Shown piece after piece: positions 33,700 to 59,206 of a stretch of DNA of 64,000 bases (the first letter of the stretch is position 1; each line of letters starts with the position of its first letter). This stretch comes from Methanosarcina mazei S-6. GTDB taxonomy: Archaea > Halobacteriota > Methanosarcinia > Methanosarcinales > Methanosarcinaceae. The DNA is taken from assembly GCF_000970205.1 (NCBI RefSeq), contig NZ_CP009512.1:248001-312000 (forward strand), written 5' to 3'. Position numbers and translations under genes: made by a program. The notes under the pieces are model-generated. The model was given only the letters and a program-made list of their open reading frames with translations, ran no database searches and was not told the DNA's origin.

Positions 33700-34488
33700 T
33701 CAGACCCTGGTAATCGGCCTTGCCATACTCTTATAGTGGTCAAAAAGTTCTTTTCCCCATTTAAGTGCACTTTCATCAAAACTTACCAGGTTATGATTGT
33801 AATAGATCCCGCTGTTGCAAAAGAGGGACAGTGCCATAAACTTCTCCGTAACTATGCTTGATGCAATTTTCATATTATTGTTATTGCACACATACAGCTT
33901 TGTATACTTCAGGTTCAGGAAATGCTCAAGTTCTTTTTTGTAGTCGTTAAGCATCCTGTCATAGACATATTCCGTAAATACAAGCGTAATGTCCGTACCT
34001 TTTGCAGCAAGCTCTATACAGAGAGAAGGGTAGATTGGAAGGAAAAATGATGAGGATATCATTACCTTCTCTGATTCGGATAGGTTTTTAACCACTTCTT
34101 TCGGATACTCAAAAACATGGTTTCGGTCAGGATTCACTTCTATATAATTTCCAAGCTTTCCGATGTCATCCAGAAACTCGGGAGGAATTGACGTCATGTC
34201 CTGGTTTACCCAGTAGTTGTGGTTTTTATCAAATACATTAAATGTTTCAAGAATAGCTTTCATCTTGGGAACCAGAATCTCTCCGATACTTGAAAGCTTA
34301 TATAGCCTGTTATTTTCAACAATTAAGTCCTGCTTCATCAGGATCTTTATCTGGGTCATAATCGGGCTTGAACGTACATCAAGTGTGCTTTTAATCTCCT
34401 CGATAGTTTTGGGTCCGTCCAGAAGAAGCAGAAGCAGGTTTTTCCTTTTTTCTGAAAGAAAGAGAACATCCAGTAATGATGATTCCAT
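33700..34488 (-). CDS. Msr/FilR1-type winged-helix regulator
   Basis: 262 residues. The N-terminal winged HTH (SEKRKNLLLLLLDGPKTIEEIKSTLDVRSSPIMTQIKILMKQDLIVENNRLYKLSSIGEILV, residues 12-75) is followed by the FilR1-middle (DUF1724) domain with NQDMTSIPPEFLDDIGKLGNY and, at the end, SFDESALKWGKELFDHYKSMAR. Members of this family (Msr proteins) control the methanol methyltransferase operons mtaCB in Methanosarcina acetivorans. GAGGGA precedes ATG 34488. It is the second of two tandem paralogues downstream of the hydantoinase-like genes and near mtaCB, so it probably regulates the local methanol genes. Confidence 0.9.
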   Translation of the reverse strand: MESSLLDVLFLSEKRKNLLLLLLDGPKTIEEIKSTLDVRSSPIMTQIKILMKQDLIVENNRLYKLSSIGEILVPKMKAILETFNVFDKNHNYWVNQDMTSIPPEFLDDIGKLGNYIEVNPDRNHVFEYPKEVVKNLSESEKVMISSSFFLPIYPSLCIELAAKGTDITLVFTEYVYDRMLNDYKKELEHFLNLKYTKLYVCNNNNMKIASSIVTEKFMALSLFCNSGIYYNHNLVSFDESALKWGKELFDHYKSMARPITRV

Positions 34489-34839: not shown

Positions 34840-35625
34840 TTATATCTTATTTACCTGTTTGGAAAGTCTCTTAAGATAATCGAATAATTCCTGTCCCCAC
34901 TTCAGAGCAGCAGGCTGAAAACTCATAATGAACTGCTGGTCAAACTTACCATTTTTATCAAAGAGCCCGAGAAGCATTATTTTTTCAGTTACCGTAACTT
35001 CTGAGATTTTTATACCTTCTTTTGAGATATAAAGGCTTACGTTGTCCATACTCATTAGCTCTTTTATCATATTTGAGTGCTCGTTTGACAGGTGGTCCCA
35101 GACGGACTGCGTAAAATTAAGAGAAAGTTCGGCATCCTTTCTGCCAAGTTCAACATACAGAGGCAGATAAGCAGGGTTGAAATAGGAAGCAAAGGTTGAA
35201 GCCATTTTTGCATTTGCCATACTATCAATAATCTTCTGGGAGGGCTCATAGATGTGGTTCAGATCCGGCTCTATCAATGTACAATCCCCAAGCTCAGAAA
35301 TTCTTTCAAGAAGATGGCGGGGGATCGAATTCAGATCGTGACCTGTCCAGTAACAGTTGTTTTTTTCAACAACTTCAAGGGCACTTATCAGCGGCTTAAC
35401 CTTTTTAATTATAAACTCTCCAAACACCGTGAGCTTATACATCCGGTCTTCCTGGACAATAAGGTCGCTGTCTATTAGCTTCTTTATCTGGGGAAGAATT
35501 GAAGTGGCAGTAACATCCAGCTCTTCCTTAATTTCATCAATATTTTTTGAGCCGCTATCCAGCAGTATTAGAAGATTTTTTCTTTTATCAGAGCGGAAAA
35601 CAAGATCAATAAGCGAAGACTCCAT
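34840..35625 (-). CDS. Msr/FilR1-type winged-helix regulator
   Basis: 261 residues, a paralogue of the neighbouring Msr gene. HTH region: SDKRKNLLILLDSGSKNIDEIKEELDVTATSILPQIKKLIDSDLIVQEDRMYKLTVFGEFII. The middle domain has GHDLNSIPRHLLERISELGDC and the conserved C-terminal SFQPAALKWGQELFDYLKRLS. It starts at ATG 35625 with GTAGGGA upstream, 128 bp after the hydantoinase-like gene. Position and family suggest control of mtaCB or of the hydantoinase-like genes. Which of the described Msr proteins it corresponds to cannot be decided. Confidence 0.9.
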   Translation of the reverse strand: MESSLIDLVFRSDKRKNLLILLDSGSKNIDEIKEELDVTATSILPQIKKLIDSDLIVQEDRMYKLTVFGEFIIKKVKPLISALEVVEKNNCYWTGHDLNSIPRHLLERISELGDCTLIEPDLNHIYEPSQKIIDSMANAKMASTFASYFNPAYLPLYVELGRKDAELSLNFTQSVWDHLSNEHSNMIKELMSMDNVSLYISKEGIKISEVTVTEKIMLLGLFDKNGKFDQQFIMSFQPAALKWGQELFDYLKRLSKQVNKI

Positions 35626-35753: not shown

Positions 35754-37682
35754 TCAGTCTGTTGAAAAACCAGGAGCGCAGACCCCTACGAATGTTATCT
35801 TTGTTTCCATCGGGGTTCGTTTCCAACCGGGAGGGACAAGGTACTCTATGCTGGTGTCTATCTTTATTGAATTGTCAGGAAGCCCGAAATCTTTCATAGA
35901 ATCCAGAATGAGTTCTTCCCCGACTTTCTGGGAATATTCCATTGCGGTCCTGTAATGTTCGAATTTTTTTCTTCCGGCCGGGGTAAATACAAGGAAATTC
36001 TGATCCGGGTTTTCCATTGAATTTGGTCTTATAGTAATCTCAATTCTTTTAATTCCTTTCCCTACAAGAGCTCCCACAGCATTTCCTACTCTTGCCTGCT
36101 CCGGGACAATAATTTCCGCATCAATAAGAGACTTCAGCTCCCCATAGTAAGCTTTTACAGGCCCTCCAAGAAGAACTATTGGAATGTTTACTTTATACTG
36201 GACAGGCACTTCTTTTTCCAGCAGCATTTTTATCCCGTCTTTGCCCTTACCTTCCATTATAAAGGACATCAGGCTGTAAGCCATATTTTTTGCAACCTGT
36301 TGCTTTACTTTTTTACAGAAAGCGATAACTCCCATCTGAGTAAAGCGGGAGAGTTTTCTTGCCCCTATCTGGGCGGCTTCCACATCCCATTCCGTATATT
36401 CTCCAAGGACATGCAGGGCATCTGTTGGTGTAAATCCTATTGCCTGAATTGCCCTCTGGTTGAGAAGGGAATCAAGAACAGCAGGAGAGGGAAACCGATT
36501 CATTTTATTTAATATGTCATGTATGGAGACAGGTTCGTCTCCTATCGCTTCAAGCAGTTTCTGTTCACTCTCTGTAGGGTTGTTGAGCGTAGCTCCGGTA
36601 CTTACAAAAAATTTTGTGGGCTGGAGATGTTCATTGAGCATTGTCCTCAAAGGTATGGGATTTTTCTCCAGTTTTTCTTTGAAATTGGGATAGTTTACCG
36701 CAGCAAAACAGAGGGGTATAACTCTTCTCGGGCCTACCCTTATGCATTTTTTGAACCATATATGGCTGTCTCCCCCGTTTGCGGAGCTTTCCATTTTTAT
36801 GGCTTTTACACGGGTCTGCCAGCCTCCTACAACAGCTCCTTTTTCGCAGAGCTCTGGAACACCATTTTTAATTATGGAGACATCCGTGCTCGTCCCTCCT
36901 ACATCAATTACGGCACATGTGTCAAGCCCCGAGAGGTGTGAGGCTCCCATAATACTTGCAGCGGGACCGGAAAATATAGTTTCAATAGGTCGCAGCTTTG
37001 CTCCCTTTATATCTATGACAGAACCGTCACATTTTAACATCAGGACTTTGGCATCGATATTTCTTTCCTTTATTTCATTCATGATTGAATGGATAAACTG
37101 GTAGGTTATGGGGATTAACTGGGCATTTAAAACTGCCGTAGCAGCTCTTTCGTAAGCTCCAAGTTCCTGGGATAGTTCATGTCCGCAGACTACGGGATGC
37201 CCTGTAAGTTTAAGGATTACTTCCTTTATCTTGATCTCATGTTCAGGATTTCTGGTGCTGAAATAAGAAGAAACAGCAAATGCGGACACTTTATTTTTAA
37301 AGCTAACTGCAAACTGCTCTACAGCCGCAATGTCAAGAGGCTGGAGCTCATCTCCATTGCTATCGTGACCCCCGTTAACCATGATAGTATAATCGGCTGG
37401 AAGCTCCCTTGGGACGGTATAGTTTCCTACAAGGATCAGGCCAACAGGATATCCTGTCTTTTCCAGAATGGTATTTGTGGAAAGAGTTGTGGAAACCGAC
37501 ACAAGTTTGACTTGTTTTAGATATTCCGGGTTCAATTCATTAATTGCATTCCGAATTCCGGTCATCAGGTTTGGATAGGTGGTAACCGCTTTACCGGTAT
37601 CAAGGATCTTGCTGTCCGAATCCCTCAAGATGACAGCATCCGTGTATGTTCCACCTGCATCAATACCCAGACTATATTGCAT
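35754..37682 (-). CDS. hydantoinase A/oxoprolinase-family ASKHA protein, copy 2
   Basis: 642 residues. The N-terminus has the sugar-kinase/actin-like phosphate loop SLGIDAGGTYTDAVI. It also has VSVSTTLSTNTILEKTGYPVGL, the conserved SGPAASIMGASHL and DTCAVIDVGGTSTDVSIIKNGVPEL, a nucleotide loop PIVLLGGPVKAYY, and VGNAVGALVGKGIKRIEI. Classical members hydrolyse hydantoins or 5-oxoproline with ATP and need a HyuB-type partner, which is not encoded here. Its paralogue lies 147 bp upstream. In this locus the pair sits between Msr regulators and mtaCB, so a methanol-linked role is suspected but unproven. Confidence 0.85.
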   Translation of the reverse strand: MQYSLGIDAGGTYTDAVILRDSDSKILDTGKAVTTYPNLMTGIRNAINELNPEYLKQVKLVSVSTTLSTNTILEKTGYPVGLILVGNYTVPRELPADYTIMVNGGHDSNGDELQPLDIAAVEQFAVSFKNKVSAFAVSSYFSTRNPEHEIKIKEVILKLTGHPVVCGHELSQELGAYERAATAVLNAQLIPITYQFIHSIMNEIKERNIDAKVLMLKCDGSVIDIKGAKLRPIETIFSGPAASIMGASHLSGLDTCAVIDVGGTSTDVSIIKNGVPELCEKGAVVGGWQTRVKAIKMESSANGGDSHIWFKKCIRVGPRRVIPLCFAAVNYPNFKEKLEKNPIPLRTMLNEHLQPTKFFVSTGATLNNPTESEQKLLEAIGDEPVSIHDILNKMNRFPSPAVLDSLLNQRAIQAIGFTPTDALHVLGEYTEWDVEAAQIGARKLSRFTQMGVIAFCKKVKQQVAKNMAYSLMSFIMEGKGKDGIKMLLEKEVPVQYKVNIPIVLLGGPVKAYYGELKSLIDAEIIVPEQARVGNAVGALVGKGIKRIEITIRPNSMENPDQNFLVFTPAGRKKFEHYRTAMEYSQKVGEELILDSMKDFGLPDNSIKIDTSIEYLVPPGWKRTPMETKITFVGVCAPGFSTD

Positions 37683-37829: not shown

Positions 37830-39845
37830 TCAGGCAATCACACTATTCTTCGGGATTCCTATCCCTACATAAACAAGTTTTGTCTCCAGAGGGACATCCG
37901 TCCAGCCGCTTGGTGACAGATGTTTTCTGCTTACGTCTATTCTTATATCTTCTTTCCCAAGACCTGCATTGATCATATAATCCATAACAAGCTGCTTTCC
38001 AAGTTTTTCGGCATATTCGAGAGCTTCGGAATATACTTCAAATTTTTTCCTTTCCGATGGTGAAAAGACAATGAACTCGGTTTTCTTTTCCTGCTGCTGG
38101 AGTGTATCTTCTATAACTTCACTCTCCGGCGCTGCACAGTGTTCCTCACCTTCAGGCGTCTCTTCTCTGGATTTGGGGATGAACCTTGTTTTTATGAGAA
38201 TCTCCACCCTCTTAATTCCTTTTCCGACAAGAGCCCCAACTGCATTACCGACATCAGCGTGTTCTGGAACTATAAACTCGGCGCTGATCAGCTTTCTCAT
38301 GTCTTCTACATATGCTCCCACAGGACCTCCGAGAAGAACGACAGGAATTTCTACTCTGAAACGAGTAAAGTTCTTTCCCTTGAGCACTCTGTCAATCTCT
38401 TCTCTGGGCATTCCTTCTATCATATATGCGATGAGGTCTTCTGCAATATTACGTGCAACCCTGCGCTTTACTTCTGCACTGAAATCTTCAGGGTCCAGTT
38501 TAAGTGGTCTCCCAAGTAAGTAAGCTCCTATCCTTGCAGCTTCAACATCCCATTCCGTATACTCACTCAGGACGTGCAGGGCATCGGTAGGTGTAAAGCC
38601 TATAGCCTGAATAAGCCTTTTCTGTATAAGAGAATCAAGTATTGAAGGCGAAGGGCGTTTTTTCAGGGCTATGAGCAGGTCTCCGAAAGAAACAGGATCT
38701 TTTCCTATATTCCTGTAAATTTCCCTTTCCCCTGCTTTTAACTCTATAGGTCTGAACCCTGTCCTGACAAAAAACTTCGTTACCTGGATATTTTCACAGA
38801 GGTAACCTTTTGCTACCCTGTTATGCTTGAGCTTCTCCCTGAATCCCGGATATATAGCAGAAGCCCTGCAGAGAGGAATGACTCTTCGGGGTCCCACATT
38901 GATCCTATCTCCCTTGAGCCAGATATGGCTGTCACCTCCGGTCGCTGAGGTCTCCATGCGGATAGCTTTTACACGGGTCTGCCAGCCTCCAACCACCGCG
39001 CCCGAGCTGCTGAGTTCCGGAAGCCCGTTCTGCATCATGGCAACATCCGTACTCGTCCCTCCTACATCGATTACGGCACATGTATCAAGCCTGGTAAGGT
39101 GTGAGGCTCCAACAAGACTTGCTGCTGGGCCCGAGAAAATAGTTTCAATGGGTTTTTCCAGAGCCTCTTCTATCCCGACCACTGACCCATCGCATTTCAG
39201 CATCAGCATGTTTGCGTTGATTCCGCGACTTTCGAATTCTTCAATTATTGCCTGGATGAACTTATGAGTAATAGGGATCAGCTGGGCATTCAGAAAAGCA
39301 GTTACAGCCCTTTCATAGGCTCCGAGATCCTGGGATAGTTCATGCCCGCAAACAACCGGCAGTCCGGTAAGTTCCTTTAAGGCTTTTTTAACTGCAAGCT
39401 CATGTTCAGGGTTCCGGTTGCTGAAATAAGAAGAAACTGCAAAAGCGGAAACTTTACTCTGTACTTTGAGTGCGAATTCTTCTACTGCATCAAGGTTCAG
39501 GGCTTTTAATTCTTCTCCATCGCTGTTATGCCCGCCTGAAACTGCTATCCAGTAATCAGTGGGAAGTTTCTCAGGGATCACATAGTCCCCCACCATAATA
39601 AGCCCTACAGGAAATCCCGTGCTTTCCAGAATCGTATTTGTGGATAGTGTGGTGGATACTGATACCAGCTTTATATCTCCAAGGTATCCCGGATCCAGTT
39701 TGTCAATTGCATTTTTCATTCCAGGCAGAGGGTCGGGGTAGGTTGTCAGAGCTTTGCTTGACTCAACCACTGCTCCGTCCGAATCCCTCACGATAACGGC
39801 ATCGGTATATGTGCCCCCTGCATCAATTCCAAGACTGAAGTGCAT
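37830..39845 (-). CDS. hydantoinase A/oxoprolinase-family ASKHA protein, copy 1
   Basis: 671 residues, closely related to the downstream gene through most of its length: SLGIDAGGTYTDAVIVRDSDG, VSVSTTLSTNTILESTGFPVGL, FSGPAASLVGASHLTRLDTCAVIDVGGTSTDVAMM, VVLLGGPVGAYVEDMRKLISAEFIVPEHADVGNAVGALVGKGIKRVEI. It has an insertion of about 30 acidic residues (~580-605; rich in E, with a Q-Q-Q run) absent from the other copy. No HyuB-type partner is present. It is the first gene of the four-gene run hydantoinase-like, hydantoinase-like, Msr, Msr. Confidence 0.85.
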   Translation of the reverse strand: MHFSLGIDAGGTYTDAVIVRDSDGAVVESSKALTTYPDPLPGMKNAIDKLDPGYLGDIKLVSVSTTLSTNTILESTGFPVGLIMVGDYVIPEKLPTDYWIAVSGGHNSDGEELKALNLDAVEEFALKVQSKVSAFAVSSYFSNRNPEHELAVKKALKELTGLPVVCGHELSQDLGAYERAVTAFLNAQLIPITHKFIQAIIEEFESRGINANMLMLKCDGSVVGIEEALEKPIETIFSGPAASLVGASHLTRLDTCAVIDVGGTSTDVAMMQNGLPELSSSGAVVGGWQTRVKAIRMETSATGGDSHIWLKGDRINVGPRRVIPLCRASAIYPGFREKLKHNRVAKGYLCENIQVTKFFVRTGFRPIELKAGEREIYRNIGKDPVSFGDLLIALKKRPSPSILDSLIQKRLIQAIGFTPTDALHVLSEYTEWDVEAARIGAYLLGRPLKLDPEDFSAEVKRRVARNIAEDLIAYMIEGMPREEIDRVLKGKNFTRFRVEIPVVLLGGPVGAYVEDMRKLISAEFIVPEHADVGNAVGALVGKGIKRVEILIKTRFIPKSREETPEGEEHCAAPESEVIEDTLQQQEKKTEFIVFSPSERKKFEVYSEALEYAEKLGKQLVMDYMINAGLGKEDIRIDVSRKHLSPSGWTDVPLETKLVYVGIGIPKNSVIA

Positions 39846-55241: not shown

Positions 55242-56027
55242 TTATATTTTCTCCAGCTTTCTGGACATGTCTTTATAGTATGAAAAAAGCTCTCCGCACC
55301 ATTTAAGTGCACTTTCGTCGAAGCTCATCAAGCGCTGATGATCAAACTTCCCTTTTTTATCAAAGAGCACGAGCGAGCAGAAACGTTCTGTTACAACGTC
55401 TTTAAGAGTTACGTTTTTGTCACAGATATAAACTTCCGCGCTCTTTGATTCTATAAGCATCTTCAGGTCTTCTCTGTAGTCTTTTTTCATCCTATCATAA
55501 ACAGGCTCTGTCAGGATGAGACACATATCTGCTTCTTTTTTTATGAGTTCGGAATATATTTCAATATAAAGAGGATTGAAGTATGAAAGAAATATTTTTA
55601 TATTTCTGGATTCGAGCAGGTTATTTTTAAAGTCTTCAGGGACTTCAAAAAGCCGGTTAAGGTCGGCTTCAAGCATAAAGTAGTTTCCTAGTTCGTCTAT
55701 CCTGTTAAGGAGGTGTTCGGGAATTGCGGTAAAATCATGGTTGATCCAGTAATCATAGTTCTCCTCAAAAACCCTGACTGTATCAAGAAGAGGCTCCATC
55801 TTCTCGACAACTATTTCCCCCATATCCGAAAGCCTGTATGAATTTTTTTCATCCTGCACTATCAGGCGCCCTTCTTTTAGCTTTTTAATTTGAGGCATAA
55901 TTGACGTAGAATTCACGTTGAGGGCTGTTTTTATTTCGTCGCCTGTCTTGGGCCCTTCTTCCAGAAGGAGCAGTACGTCTTTCCTTTTTTCGGACAGGAA
56001 CGCCAGGTCAATCAGTGATATTTTCAT
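55242..56027 (-). CDS. Msr/FilR1-type winged-helix regulator, third copy
   Basis: 261 residues, same family as the two Msr genes at 33.7-35.6 kb: SEKRKDVLLLLEEGPKTGDEIKTALNVNSTSIMPQIKKLKEGRLIVQDEKNSYRLSDMGEIVV (winged HTH), NHDFTAIPEHLLNRIDELGNYFMLEADLNRLFEVPED (FilR1-middle), and the C-terminal SFDESALKWCGELFSYYKDMSRKL. It lies beyond mtaA, so the three Msr homologues bracket the methanol island. Its target is unknown. Confidence 0.9.
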   Translation of the reverse strand: MKISLIDLAFLSEKRKDVLLLLEEGPKTGDEIKTALNVNSTSIMPQIKKLKEGRLIVQDEKNSYRLSDMGEIVVEKMEPLLDTVRVFEENYDYWINHDFTAIPEHLLNRIDELGNYFMLEADLNRLFEVPEDFKNNLLESRNIKIFLSYFNPLYIEIYSELIKKEADMCLILTEPVYDRMKKDYREDLKMLIESKSAEVYICDKNVTLKDVVTERFCSLVLFDKKGKFDHQRLMSFDESALKWCGELFSYYKDMSRKLEKI

Positions 56028-56982: not shown

Positions 56983-57495
56983 TTATTCCCGGGCTTTTTT
57001 TACAAGGGCAAAAATTCCCTGAAGAATTTCTTTTGGAGAGGGCGGGTTCCCGGGAATTTTTACATCCACGGGAAGGATTTTGTCAACTCCCCCAAGTACG
57101 GCGTAAGAACCCTTGTAGATCCCGCCGTCACAGGCGTCGTCTCCGACTGCTATTACATACTTGGGGTAAGGCATGGCTTCATAGGTCTTTTTTGCGGCTT
57201 CAGCCATATTAAGGGTGACTGCCCCTGTAACCAGAAGGACATCAGCATGCCTGGGAGATGCTACAAAAGAAATCCCGAACCTTTCAACATCATAATGCGG
57301 GTTTCCAAGGTTTGAAATTTCTATCTCCGTAGAATTGTCGCTTCCCGAGTCTAGCTCACGGATTGCAAGGCTGTGCCCGAAAACTTTAGGAACTTCTTTT
57401 TTTATTTGTGCTCCAAGGGCTTCCAGTTCTTCGTCCCTGAACTCAAATGTCTCCGTAACTTTCGGACGAAGGAAAAGGGAAAGAGGGTTTACCAT
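56983..57495 (-). CDS. HyfI/NuoB-like small subunit lacking the Fe-S cluster cysteines
   Basis: 170 residues from ATG 57495 (GAGGTCTT ribosome binding site); a GTG at 57507 overlaps that site. The family frame of hydrogenase-4/complex-I small subunits is clear: HSLAIRELDSGS...IEISNLGNPHYDVERFGISFVASPRHADVLLVTGAVT, YVIAVGDDACDGGIYKGSYAVLGGVDKILPVDVKIPGNPPSP. The four Cys ligands of the proximal [4Fe-4S] cluster are replaced. Expected GSCNGCD reads GSDNSTE (Asp53, Thr56), GxC before xGG reads GDDACDGG (Asp120; the lone Cys is two residues off), and PGCPP reads PGNPP (Asn150). It is the last gene of the operon. Confidence 0.9.
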   Translation of the reverse strand: MVNPLSLFLRPKVTETFEFRDEELEALGAQIKKEVPKVFGHSLAIRELDSGSDNSTEIEISNLGNPHYDVERFGISFVASPRHADVLLVTGAVTLNMAEAAKKTYEAMPYPKYVIAVGDDACDGGIYKGSYAVLGGVDKILPVDVKIPGNPPSPKEILQGIFALVKKARE

Positions 57496-57580: not shown

Positions 57581-59206
57581 TCAAAGGTCCGTTCCTGCAT
57601 AGGAGAGGTTAAGGCTCTTATTTATCAGGGGGAAATCAGGAACAATATTTCCAAGAACAGCATGTTCTATAGCCTGCCAGTTGCAGAAAGATGCCGTCCT
57701 TACCTTATAACGGTCAACAATCCCGTTTTTAAGATATACCCAGTGAAGGTTCTGTCCCCTTGGGGCTTCTACCAGGGAAAGGGAATATCCTGTAGTTCCG
57801 GAAATGTTTATCTCTCCGGCACTTTCTCCTCTTCCGCCGTTCTCAGCAAGTACGGGACCCTGCGGGAGTTTTTCCGTGAGACGGAGGATCAGGCCCACAG
57901 CTGCACGGATTTCACTGGCTTTTATCTCAAAACGGGAAAAAACATCTCCTTTTTTCCTCAGGCAGTGCTCTGGAGTAAAGTTCCTGTAGGCTCCGTAAGG
58001 CCTGTCAAGCCTGGTATCCGAAGAGGACCCAGAAGCTCTGGCAATAGGGCCCGTAAGGTTAAGCGGAGAAATAAGTTCTTTCTTTATCACTCCGGTCGTT
58101 ACAAACCTGTCAATCAGGGAAGACGAAGATGTTGCCCTGTTATAAGCGGATTCAAAAGACCTGGAAAACTTCCCAAGAAATTCAGGAATTTCTTTCAGAG
58201 CCGGGTCTGGAATGTCTTTTTTCAACCCTCCGGGAACGGTGATCCCGCGAAGGAACCTTGAACCCGTTAGCTTCTCGTTCAGCCTGAAAACTTCTTCTCT
58301 TAATATGAAGAACGGACTTGCTACAAGCGCGAAACCCACATCTACAGCCATTCCTGCGAGGTCTCCGAGCAGGGAGTAAATGCGCTCCAGTTCGAGCATT
58401 ACCGCCCTCAGGCGTTCCGCCCTTTCAGGCACCTTTATCCCGCAGACCTGTTCCACTGCCATACAGAATCCTGCTGCGTTTGCCATGCTCTCATCCCCAC
58501 TTACGGCTTCTGCGAGAGCAACACATTCTGAAGGGTTTTTTCCTTCAGCCAGCTTTTCTATTCCCCTGTGCTTGTAAAAAAGACGGATCTCCAGGCTGAA
58601 TATAGGCTCTCCTATCACACTGAACCTGAAATGTCCCGGCTCAATTATCCCGGCATGCACCGGCCCGACGGGGATCTGATATACACCCTCCCCTTTGTGC
58701 TGCCTGAATTTGTACTCCTTACGCGGAGCCTCAACCGGGCTGATTGGTCCGTTTTTGAAGGATTTCAGGAGGGGGTGGAAACCTTCAGGATAACACTCGT
58801 GCAGGAAAAGCCTTCGTGTATCAAAAGCTCCGTCAAATTCAATGCCGAAACCGTCCCTGACCTCCCTTTCAAACCAGGATGCTGAGGGAAAAGTTTCTGC
58901 AATCGAAGTAATCCTTTTTTCATTTCCTGTTTCCCTGACGAGAATAAGGACCGGTGACATTCCTTCTTTCTTGAAGGCATAAAATAGGGTAAAGCCGTCC
59001 TTTCCCTCAAAGGCTTCCGCACAGAAAAGCCCTATCAGGCTAAACTTCCTTTCCGCAAGTGCAGGGCAGGCCTCTTTAAACCCGGTTTCCGAAATTCTCA
59101 GGTATATCTCGTTTTCACGGGCGCTGAGAATTTCAAGCTTCTCCTGTGCGATGCTGGAGACTGTAGAAAGCAGTTCTGTTATATCTTCGTTCATTTTGAT
59201 GTCCAT
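57581..59206 (-). CDS. HyfG/NuoCD-like large subunit lacking the NiFe ligands
   Basis: 541 residues. Residues ~45-150 form a NuoC-like (30-kDa) part (WFEREVRDGFGIEFDGAFDTRRLFLHECYPEGFHPL). The rest is the 49-kDa/large-subunit fold (YQIPVGPVHAGIIEPGHFRFSVIGE, LEIRLFYKHRGIEKLAEGK, LRAVMLELERIYSLLGDLAGMAVD). In hydrogenases the active site needs two CxxC motifs. The first (R-V-C-G-I-C-G) reads AEAVSGDES at 232-240. The second (D-P-C-x-x-C) reads NLSYAGTDL at 533-541, the C-terminus. All four nickel ligands are missing. It starts 11 bp after the upstream gene; the gap to the small subunit is 85 bp from its ATG. Confidence 0.92.
   Translation of the reverse strand: MDIKMNEDITELLSTVSSIAQEKLEILSARENEIYLRISETGFKEACPALAERKFSLIGLFCAEAFEGKDGFTLFYAFKKEGMSPVLILVRETGNEKRITSIAETFPSASWFEREVRDGFGIEFDGAFDTRRLFLHECYPEGFHPLLKSFKNGPISPVEAPRKEYKFRQHKGEGVYQIPVGPVHAGIIEPGHFRFSVIGEPIFSLEIRLFYKHRGIEKLAEGKNPSECVALAEAVSGDESMANAAGFCMAVEQVCGIKVPERAERLRAVMLELERIYSLLGDLAGMAVDVGFALVASPFFILREEVFRLNEKLTGSRFLRGITVPGGLKKDIPDPALKEIPEFLGKFSRSFESAYNRATSSSSLIDRFVTTGVIKKELISPLNLTGPIARASGSSSDTRLDRPYGAYRNFTPEHCLRKKGDVFSRFEIKASEIRAAVGLILRLTEKLPQGPVLAENGGRGESAGEINISGTTGYSLSLVEAPRGQNLHWVYLKNGIVDRYKVRTASFCNWQAIEHAVLGNIVPDFPLINKSLNLSYAGTDL

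Follow-up and report, generated by a model that had tools for sequence, protein, structure and literature searches.

Six same-strand genes in the 64,000-nucleotide stretch of Methanosarcina mazei S-6 DNA analysed here (the window) may encode a membrane complex of the complex I/group 4 hydrogenase superfamily that holds no redox cofactor and moves ions independently of redox chemistry, a reading that we regard as an even call. The genes (HyfB, HyfC, HyfE, HyfF, HyfG and HyfI, in the order B-C-E-F-G-I) and the replaced ligand motifs are listed in Table 1. What counts for a cofactor-free ion mover is the loss of ligands in both soluble subunits, the conservation of the residues that replace them and the intact residues of the membrane subunits. 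Ligand loss alone is no proof that every cofactor is lost; that cofactors are absent from the real protein, that the complex translocates ions, which ion it moves and in which direction, and that the soluble arm gates this movement, we infer.

Table 1. Operon genes and replaced ligand motifs, in positions of the window.
Feature	Position	Strand	Remark
HyfI/NuoB-like small subunit, 174 aa	56983..57507	minus	four N2 [4Fe-4S] ligands all replaced
GSDNSTEIE, residues 55-63	57319..57345	minus	in place of N2 SCNGC(D/E) (C->D57, C->T60)
GDDAC, residues 122-126	57130..57144	minus	in place of N2 GxC (C->D124)
PGNPP, residues 152-156	57040..57054	minus	in place of N2 PGCPP (C->N154)
HyfG/HycE-like large subunit (NuoC+NuoD fusion), 541 aa	57581..59206	minus	four Ni ligands all replaced
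AEAVSGDES, residues 232-240	58487..58513	minus	in place of N-terminal Ni-binding CxxC (S236, E239)
NLSYAGTDL, residues 533-541	57584..57610	minus	in place of C-terminal Ni-binding CxxC (S535, G538)
HyfF-like antiporter-type subunit, 512 aa	59218..60756	minus	E130, K217 kept; TM12 residue K390
HyfE-like membrane subunit, 228 aa	60753..61439	minus	PRK11492, E = 8e-18
HyfC/NuoH-like membrane subunit, 313 aa	61436..62377	minus	domain match and residue alignment
HyfB-like antiporter-type subunit, 646 aa in genome	62374..64000	minus	extends past window end

The first-pass annotation, which covered the large subunit only, had claimed that all four of its Ni ligands are replaced, and alignment with E. 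coli HyfG and the genome's own EchE indeed places S236, E239, S535 and G538 at the ligand positions. The motif letters it had given agree with the translation (AEAVSGDES at residues 232-240, NLSYAGTDL at 533-541 and HAGIIEPGHFRF at 184-195), and the intact CxxC that might have lain elsewhere in the protein does not occur, there being zero CxxC pairs in the whole 541-aa translation. The protein matches the Pfam families Complex1_30kDa, Complex1_49kDa and NiFeSe_Hases, and its best solved relative is the formate hydrogenlyase subunit HycE (7z0s_E, E = 7e-68), which is also the best structural match (Z 43.1, rmsd 2.7, 495 aligned, 27% identity) of its AlphaFold model (mean pLDDT 82, pTM 0.87). 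Across the family, position 236 is S in 44 of 45 rows (C in L063), and position 239 is E in 45/45. Among the 42 rows extending to position 535, 41 have S, L043 being out of frame at that point, and position 538 is G in 42/42.

A further loss, absent from that annotation, lies in the adjoining small subunit, where alignment with E. coli HyfI and the genome's own EchC and FpoB puts D57, T60, D124 and N154 in place of the N2 cysteines. Over 42 rows, position 57 is D in 41 (one is ambiguous), position 60 is T in 28, A in 11 and P in 3, position 124 is D in 41 (E in L060), and position 154 is N throughout, with D in one further genome (L119); C126, the sole conserved cysteine of this subunit, is kept in 42/42. 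The conserved start is probably Met5, and the predicted fold is of the NuoB type (Z about 19), with low confidence in the former N2 loop (residues 58-60). With both the Ni and the N2 ligands replaced, neither soluble subunit would be able to hold its usual cofactor, and a membrane arm attached to no electron path would not be drivable by redox in the usual manner.

That the large subunit is a real, selected protein rather than a product of decay, as had also been proposed at first pass, is borne out by median pairwise dN/dS values of 0.12-0.14 for its gene, by the presence of the operon in 18 of 30 Methanosarcina genomes (best match of at least 480 bits) and by the invariance of the replacement residues across phyla. 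For two clades of Methanosarcina, each represented by 6 sequences, the medians were 0.07 and 0.10 for HyfI, 0.12 and 0.14 for HyfG, 0.10 and 0.10 for HyfF, 0.09 and 0.10 for HyfE, 0.06 and 0.11 for HyfC, and 0.09 and 0.13 for HyfB, with a span of 0.05-0.14 over all six genes, figures that are approximate because dS is 0.5-0.95. All six genes are under purifying selection. Of the two soluble subunits the small one is the better conserved: full-length Methanosarcina members share 82-96% identity with the small subunit of the window and 58-82% with the large one. Single broken members occur, namely a large-subunit ORF out of frame in one Methanosarcina MAG (L023/L072, G002) and an out-of-frame C-terminus in L043, both of which could be assembly errors. 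Such members are what an explanation of the finding as pseudogene, assembly error or sequence artefact could draw on, but identical residues recur in several phyla and in single-contig genomes and the dN/dS span is low throughout; on these grounds decay or artefact was rejected, and we give it a negligible chance.

The NCBIfam equivalog models PRK08667 and PRK08676 ('hydrogenase membrane subunit') match HyfB and HyfF, so that the membrane genes of the operon are already annotated as hydrogenase parts. The sites compared are those that align with proton-path residues of complex I from E. coli. HyfB keeps E143, K220, K297, H340, H344, K348 and E403 in 37/37 rows, HyfF keeps E130 and K217 in 43/43, and HyfC keeps E141, D199 and E206 in 40/40. 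Against the E of E. coli HyfF and most Ehr (see below), 42 of the 43 family rows carry K at HyfF position 390 in TM12; this exchange was dropped as a diagnostic of the family, since E is found in L194 and K in the Ehr L190. HyfC position 216 is E in 22 and A in 18 of the 40 rows, and the site aligned to NuoH D63 varies too, and the path linking soluble arm and membrane would thus be partly altered. Given the retention of the proton-path residues, the ion-moving machinery looks complete. In the proposed mechanism the antiporter-like HyfB and HyfF, together with HyfC and HyfE, would either carry H+ or swap it for Na+, with or against an ion gradient, and what was once the redox arm would act as a rigid gate that responds to a ligand and is built around the polar residues conserved in the old cofactor pockets.

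A scan of genome contigs for which 13 Methanosarcina sequences served as queries returned 46 loci, 44 of which (L036-L079) belong to the family; L080 and L081 were dropped as members because their small subunits keep the N2 cysteines and are complex I genes. The gene order B-C-E-F-G-I is conserved among the family loci, and all six genes are visible at 34 of the 44, most of the other ten running off contig ends. There is no HyfH-type ferredoxin gene in the window operon and no ferredoxin-type gene beside the operon at any of the 44 loci (both 1.5-kb flanks present in 26), nor do the member ORFs of these loci contain FeS motifs, the lone match being a 64-aa ORF that overlaps HyfG of L060. Clustering of the flanking ORFs of L036-L079 yielded no conserved partner gene, only the operon genes recurring widely. 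At one locus (L050/L196; G321, Altiarchaeales IMC4) the small subunit lies about 0.83 Mb from the large one on the same scaffold, which may be a scaffolding artefact. Elsewhere the window holds three similar regulators (33700-34488, 34840-35625 and 55242-56027), the last of which matches FilR1 and the first two of which resemble each other by eye only, and two adjacent paralogous ORFs of about 650 aa (35754-37682 and 37830-39845) that start MxxSLGIDAGGTYTDAVI.

In the accessible text of three papers, group 4 hydrogenase-related complexes without Ni/Fe-coordinating residues are known as Ehr (PMC6349859, PMC4378227, PMC7304191). Our large-subunit tree (43 rows) places the cofactor-less rows in one clade (100/100) nested among Ehr, with the Thermoproteota Ehr L190-L192 as the closest group (94/88), and sets Ehr, Ni-Cys and cofactor-less rows together apart from Hyf, Ech, Fpo and Nuo (100/100); the cofactor-less rows also form one clade in the small-subunit tree (100/99). 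L040, L041, L043, L069, L072, L073, L080 and L081 were left out of the trees (truncated, out of frame, odd ends or non-family), the later large- and small-subunit trees use a subset of the remaining rows, and long-branch warnings attach to the Geobacter and Chloroflexota Ehr rows. Ehr are the sister or parent group of the window family in these trees and resemble it in their hyf-type subunits and in Ni-ligand loss with SGD and SYxG-type replacements. They differ in the N2 cysteines, which the printed definition does not touch on and which are kept in all 8 Ehr rows compared and lost in the window family, and in the HyfH-type ferredoxin domain, which is present in L089, L134, L135 and L189 whereas the window family is without HyfH.

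Within Ehr, a Geobacter genome with two clusters keeps all N2 cysteines in both small subunits, and the archaeal operons L134 and L135 consist of B-C-E-F-G plus HyfH and an N2-bearing small subunit. The Thermoproteota L190-L192 look like an evolutionary intermediate: their N2 site is intact and their fused ferredoxin domain is partly decayed, the second motif keeping three Cys and the first being mostly gone. E239 was withdrawn as a residue unique to the cofactor-less clade, since the Thermoproteota Ehr also have SGDE, and HyfH absence was dropped as diagnostic, none being seen in the Geobacter Ehr cluster L090 either, so that HyfH loss by itself is not unique to the family of the window. Judged from sequence, the six-gene complex is an Ehr in the broad printed sense, descended from an Ehr already without NiFe but with N2, and what is new in it, going by the ligand motifs, is the loss, besides NiFe, of the N2 ligands and of the ferredoxin subunit. 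The literature searched contained no description of N2 loss or of a cofactor-free Ehr; Coppi 2005 and Marreiros 2013, which reportedly named and surveyed Ehr, may add to this.

A Chloroflexota set (L183-L188; genomes G447, G363, G455, G535, G423 and G347) has intact Ni-type Cys (e.g. RICGACSLSH and LCYSCLDR; L183 reads CCAAC), a ferredoxin domain and small subunits with an Asp-substituted N2 site (GSDN, GDEAC or GTDAC, IPGDPP), and thus amounts to a hydrogenase-like protein without N2 ligands, which is odd in itself. The set joins the cofactor-less clade weakly in the small-subunit tree (86/89); the large-subunit tree does not recover this grouping and does not reject it (p-AU 0.098), and given the disagreement N2 may have been lost once or twice. 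Were the window complex still a redox enzyme, with an unusual cofactor (an Asp/Asn/Cys126-ligated cluster, another metal or a diffusible carrier) replacing N2 and NiFe, the invariance or near-invariance of C126 and the acidic residues would fit, as would L183-L188, whose combination of Ni-type Cys and ferredoxin domain with a similar N2 site would be odd if that site carried no electrons. We consider such an enzyme unlikely, however, as 0/4 of the N2 ligands are Cys, the operon contains no electron-input subunit or FeS motif, and several hosts have no other NuoD-like complex.

Compared with E. coli hydrogenase-4/formate hydrogenlyase (HyfA-J, HycE/HycG), the window complex shares the subunits B, C, E, F, G and I and the fold but is without Ni ligands, N2, HyfH, HyfA and HyfD. 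It has the membrane subunits B, C, E and F of a group 4 [NiFe]-hydrogenase (Hyf/Hyc/Ech), whereas both the Ni Cys (RxCGxC and CxxC) and the proximal/N2 cluster of such enzymes are missing. Homology to NuoB, CD, H and the antiporters and the proton-path Lys/Glu are common to it and to respiratory complex I/Fpo, yet the operon encodes neither an N2 site nor electron-input subunits. The Mrp antiporter is a non-redox set of MrpA-G without NuoB/NuoCD/NuoH homologues. In DabAB (DAB2) and Mrp, NuoL/MrpA-type subunits are used without redox chemistry, as proposed here for the window complex, but the window operon retains NuoB/NuoCD/NuoH homologues and has no DabA-like or MrpE/F/G-type gene, and the operon flanks hold no conserved neighbour that could be a carbonic-anhydrase-like partner of the DabA kind.

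DabAB couples CO2 hydration to the proton-motive force. The available text on DAB2, which describes a NuoL-like subunit in a pmf-driven non-redox machine (PMC13144422), is a published precedent for ion-gradient-driven non-redox chemistry in the window complex, whose old NiFe/N2 pockets would bind a substrate or divalent metal with DabAB-like coupling. Residues of the former pockets rank with the best conserved in these proteins, and D57, D124 and N154 with E239 and D238 could form a metal or proton site. We hold this chemistry possible, if rather doubtful: no catalytic domain is recognisable, no conserved neighbour gene hints at a substrate, and D238 is present in Ehr with an N2 site as well, as is E239 in those of the Thermoproteota, which makes this portion of the site older than N2 loss. 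Counting against the redox-independent ion mover that we favour, the invariance of D57, N58, D123, D124, C126, N154 and S236-E239 suggests that the old pockets do something specific, for which a plain antiporter scaffold would have no need, and the strict retention of polar residues in both putatively emptied pockets argues for binding or protonation there. The literature and structures searched held no transport assay, metal analysis or solved structure for any family member.

Archaeal hosts of the complex are Methanosarcina, Methanoregula, Methanospirillum, Altiarchaeota, Bathyarchaeota, Woesearchaeota, Aenigmatarchaeota and one Thermoplasmatota-labelled MAG, and bacterial hosts are Dehalococcoidia; because hosts are often MAGs, individual taxon labels may be wrong. 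Seed genomes included, the cofactor-less small subunit is present in 17 of 294 genomes of the window's phylum, 13 of 301 Chloroflexota genomes (the phylum of G332), 4 of 371 in the phylum of the Woesearchaeota MAG G326 and 2 of 300 in that of the Bathyarchaeota MAG G323. Of 14 hosts outside Methanosarcina, 9 yielded no NuoD-like protein other than the cofactor-less one; with the reservation that MAGs are incomplete, this points to a complex that needs no second one of its kind in those hosts. The presence of an FpoD-like and an EchE-like protein in the window genome (G000; 4.14 Mb, single contig) would allow for a partnership with Fpo or Ech in a regulatory or decoy role, but those 9 hosts and the full set of membrane subunits that the complex has of its own make this very improbable.

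A Dehalococcoides-like genome (G354) carries the cofactor-less six-gene operon at L194 (G354:C1:1293500-1311000), and its three NuoD-like genes are the cofactor-less one and two others. The operon fits the Dehalococcoides 'Hyc' (DET1570 region) in position and gene type. As far as the accessible text of these papers goes, DET1570 of D. mccartyi 195 is annotated as 'hydrogenase, group 4, HycG subunit' (PMC5102406), Hyc of this strain is counted among the hydrogenases as membrane-bound (PMC2930330) and Hyc proteins were detected in strain CBDB1 (PMC6113397). The Dehalococcoides 'Hyc hydrogenase' is probably the cofactor-less complex, to judge from gene type and position. The available part of a blue-native complexome study of D. 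mccartyi CBDB1 reports no other abundant membrane complex (PMC6005880), which speaks against a high abundance of the cofactor-less complex there. Repression of hdrED in M. acetivorans lowered the transcript level of 'NADH dehydrogenase subunit N MA4368', according to the portion of that study available (PMC11619418), and from its genome position MA4368 is probably HyfF or HyfB of the cofactor-less operon. Tentatively, and at a little under an even chance, we propose that a branch of the superfamily spanning methanogens, DPANN and Dehalococcoidia, the Dehalococcoides 'Hyc' included, is non-redox and couples its proton arm to an event in the emptied pockets.

It has long been asked how complex I uses electron transfer to drive proton pumping at a distance, and a homologue from nature that has kept its membrane arm intact but has no redox cofactors would reveal what the soluble arm does besides carrying electrons. 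If our reading is true, the six genes encode a natural machine of the complex I type from which the electron path has been removed, at the end of an evolutionary series that would run from NiFe hydrogenase to Ehr with N2, to Ehr with a decaying ferredoxin domain and finally to no cofactor. Our data also suggest that methanogens and the bioremediation bacterium Dehalococcoides carry genes wrongly annotated as hydrogenases, and metabolic models that count these genes as H2 enzymes would need correcting.
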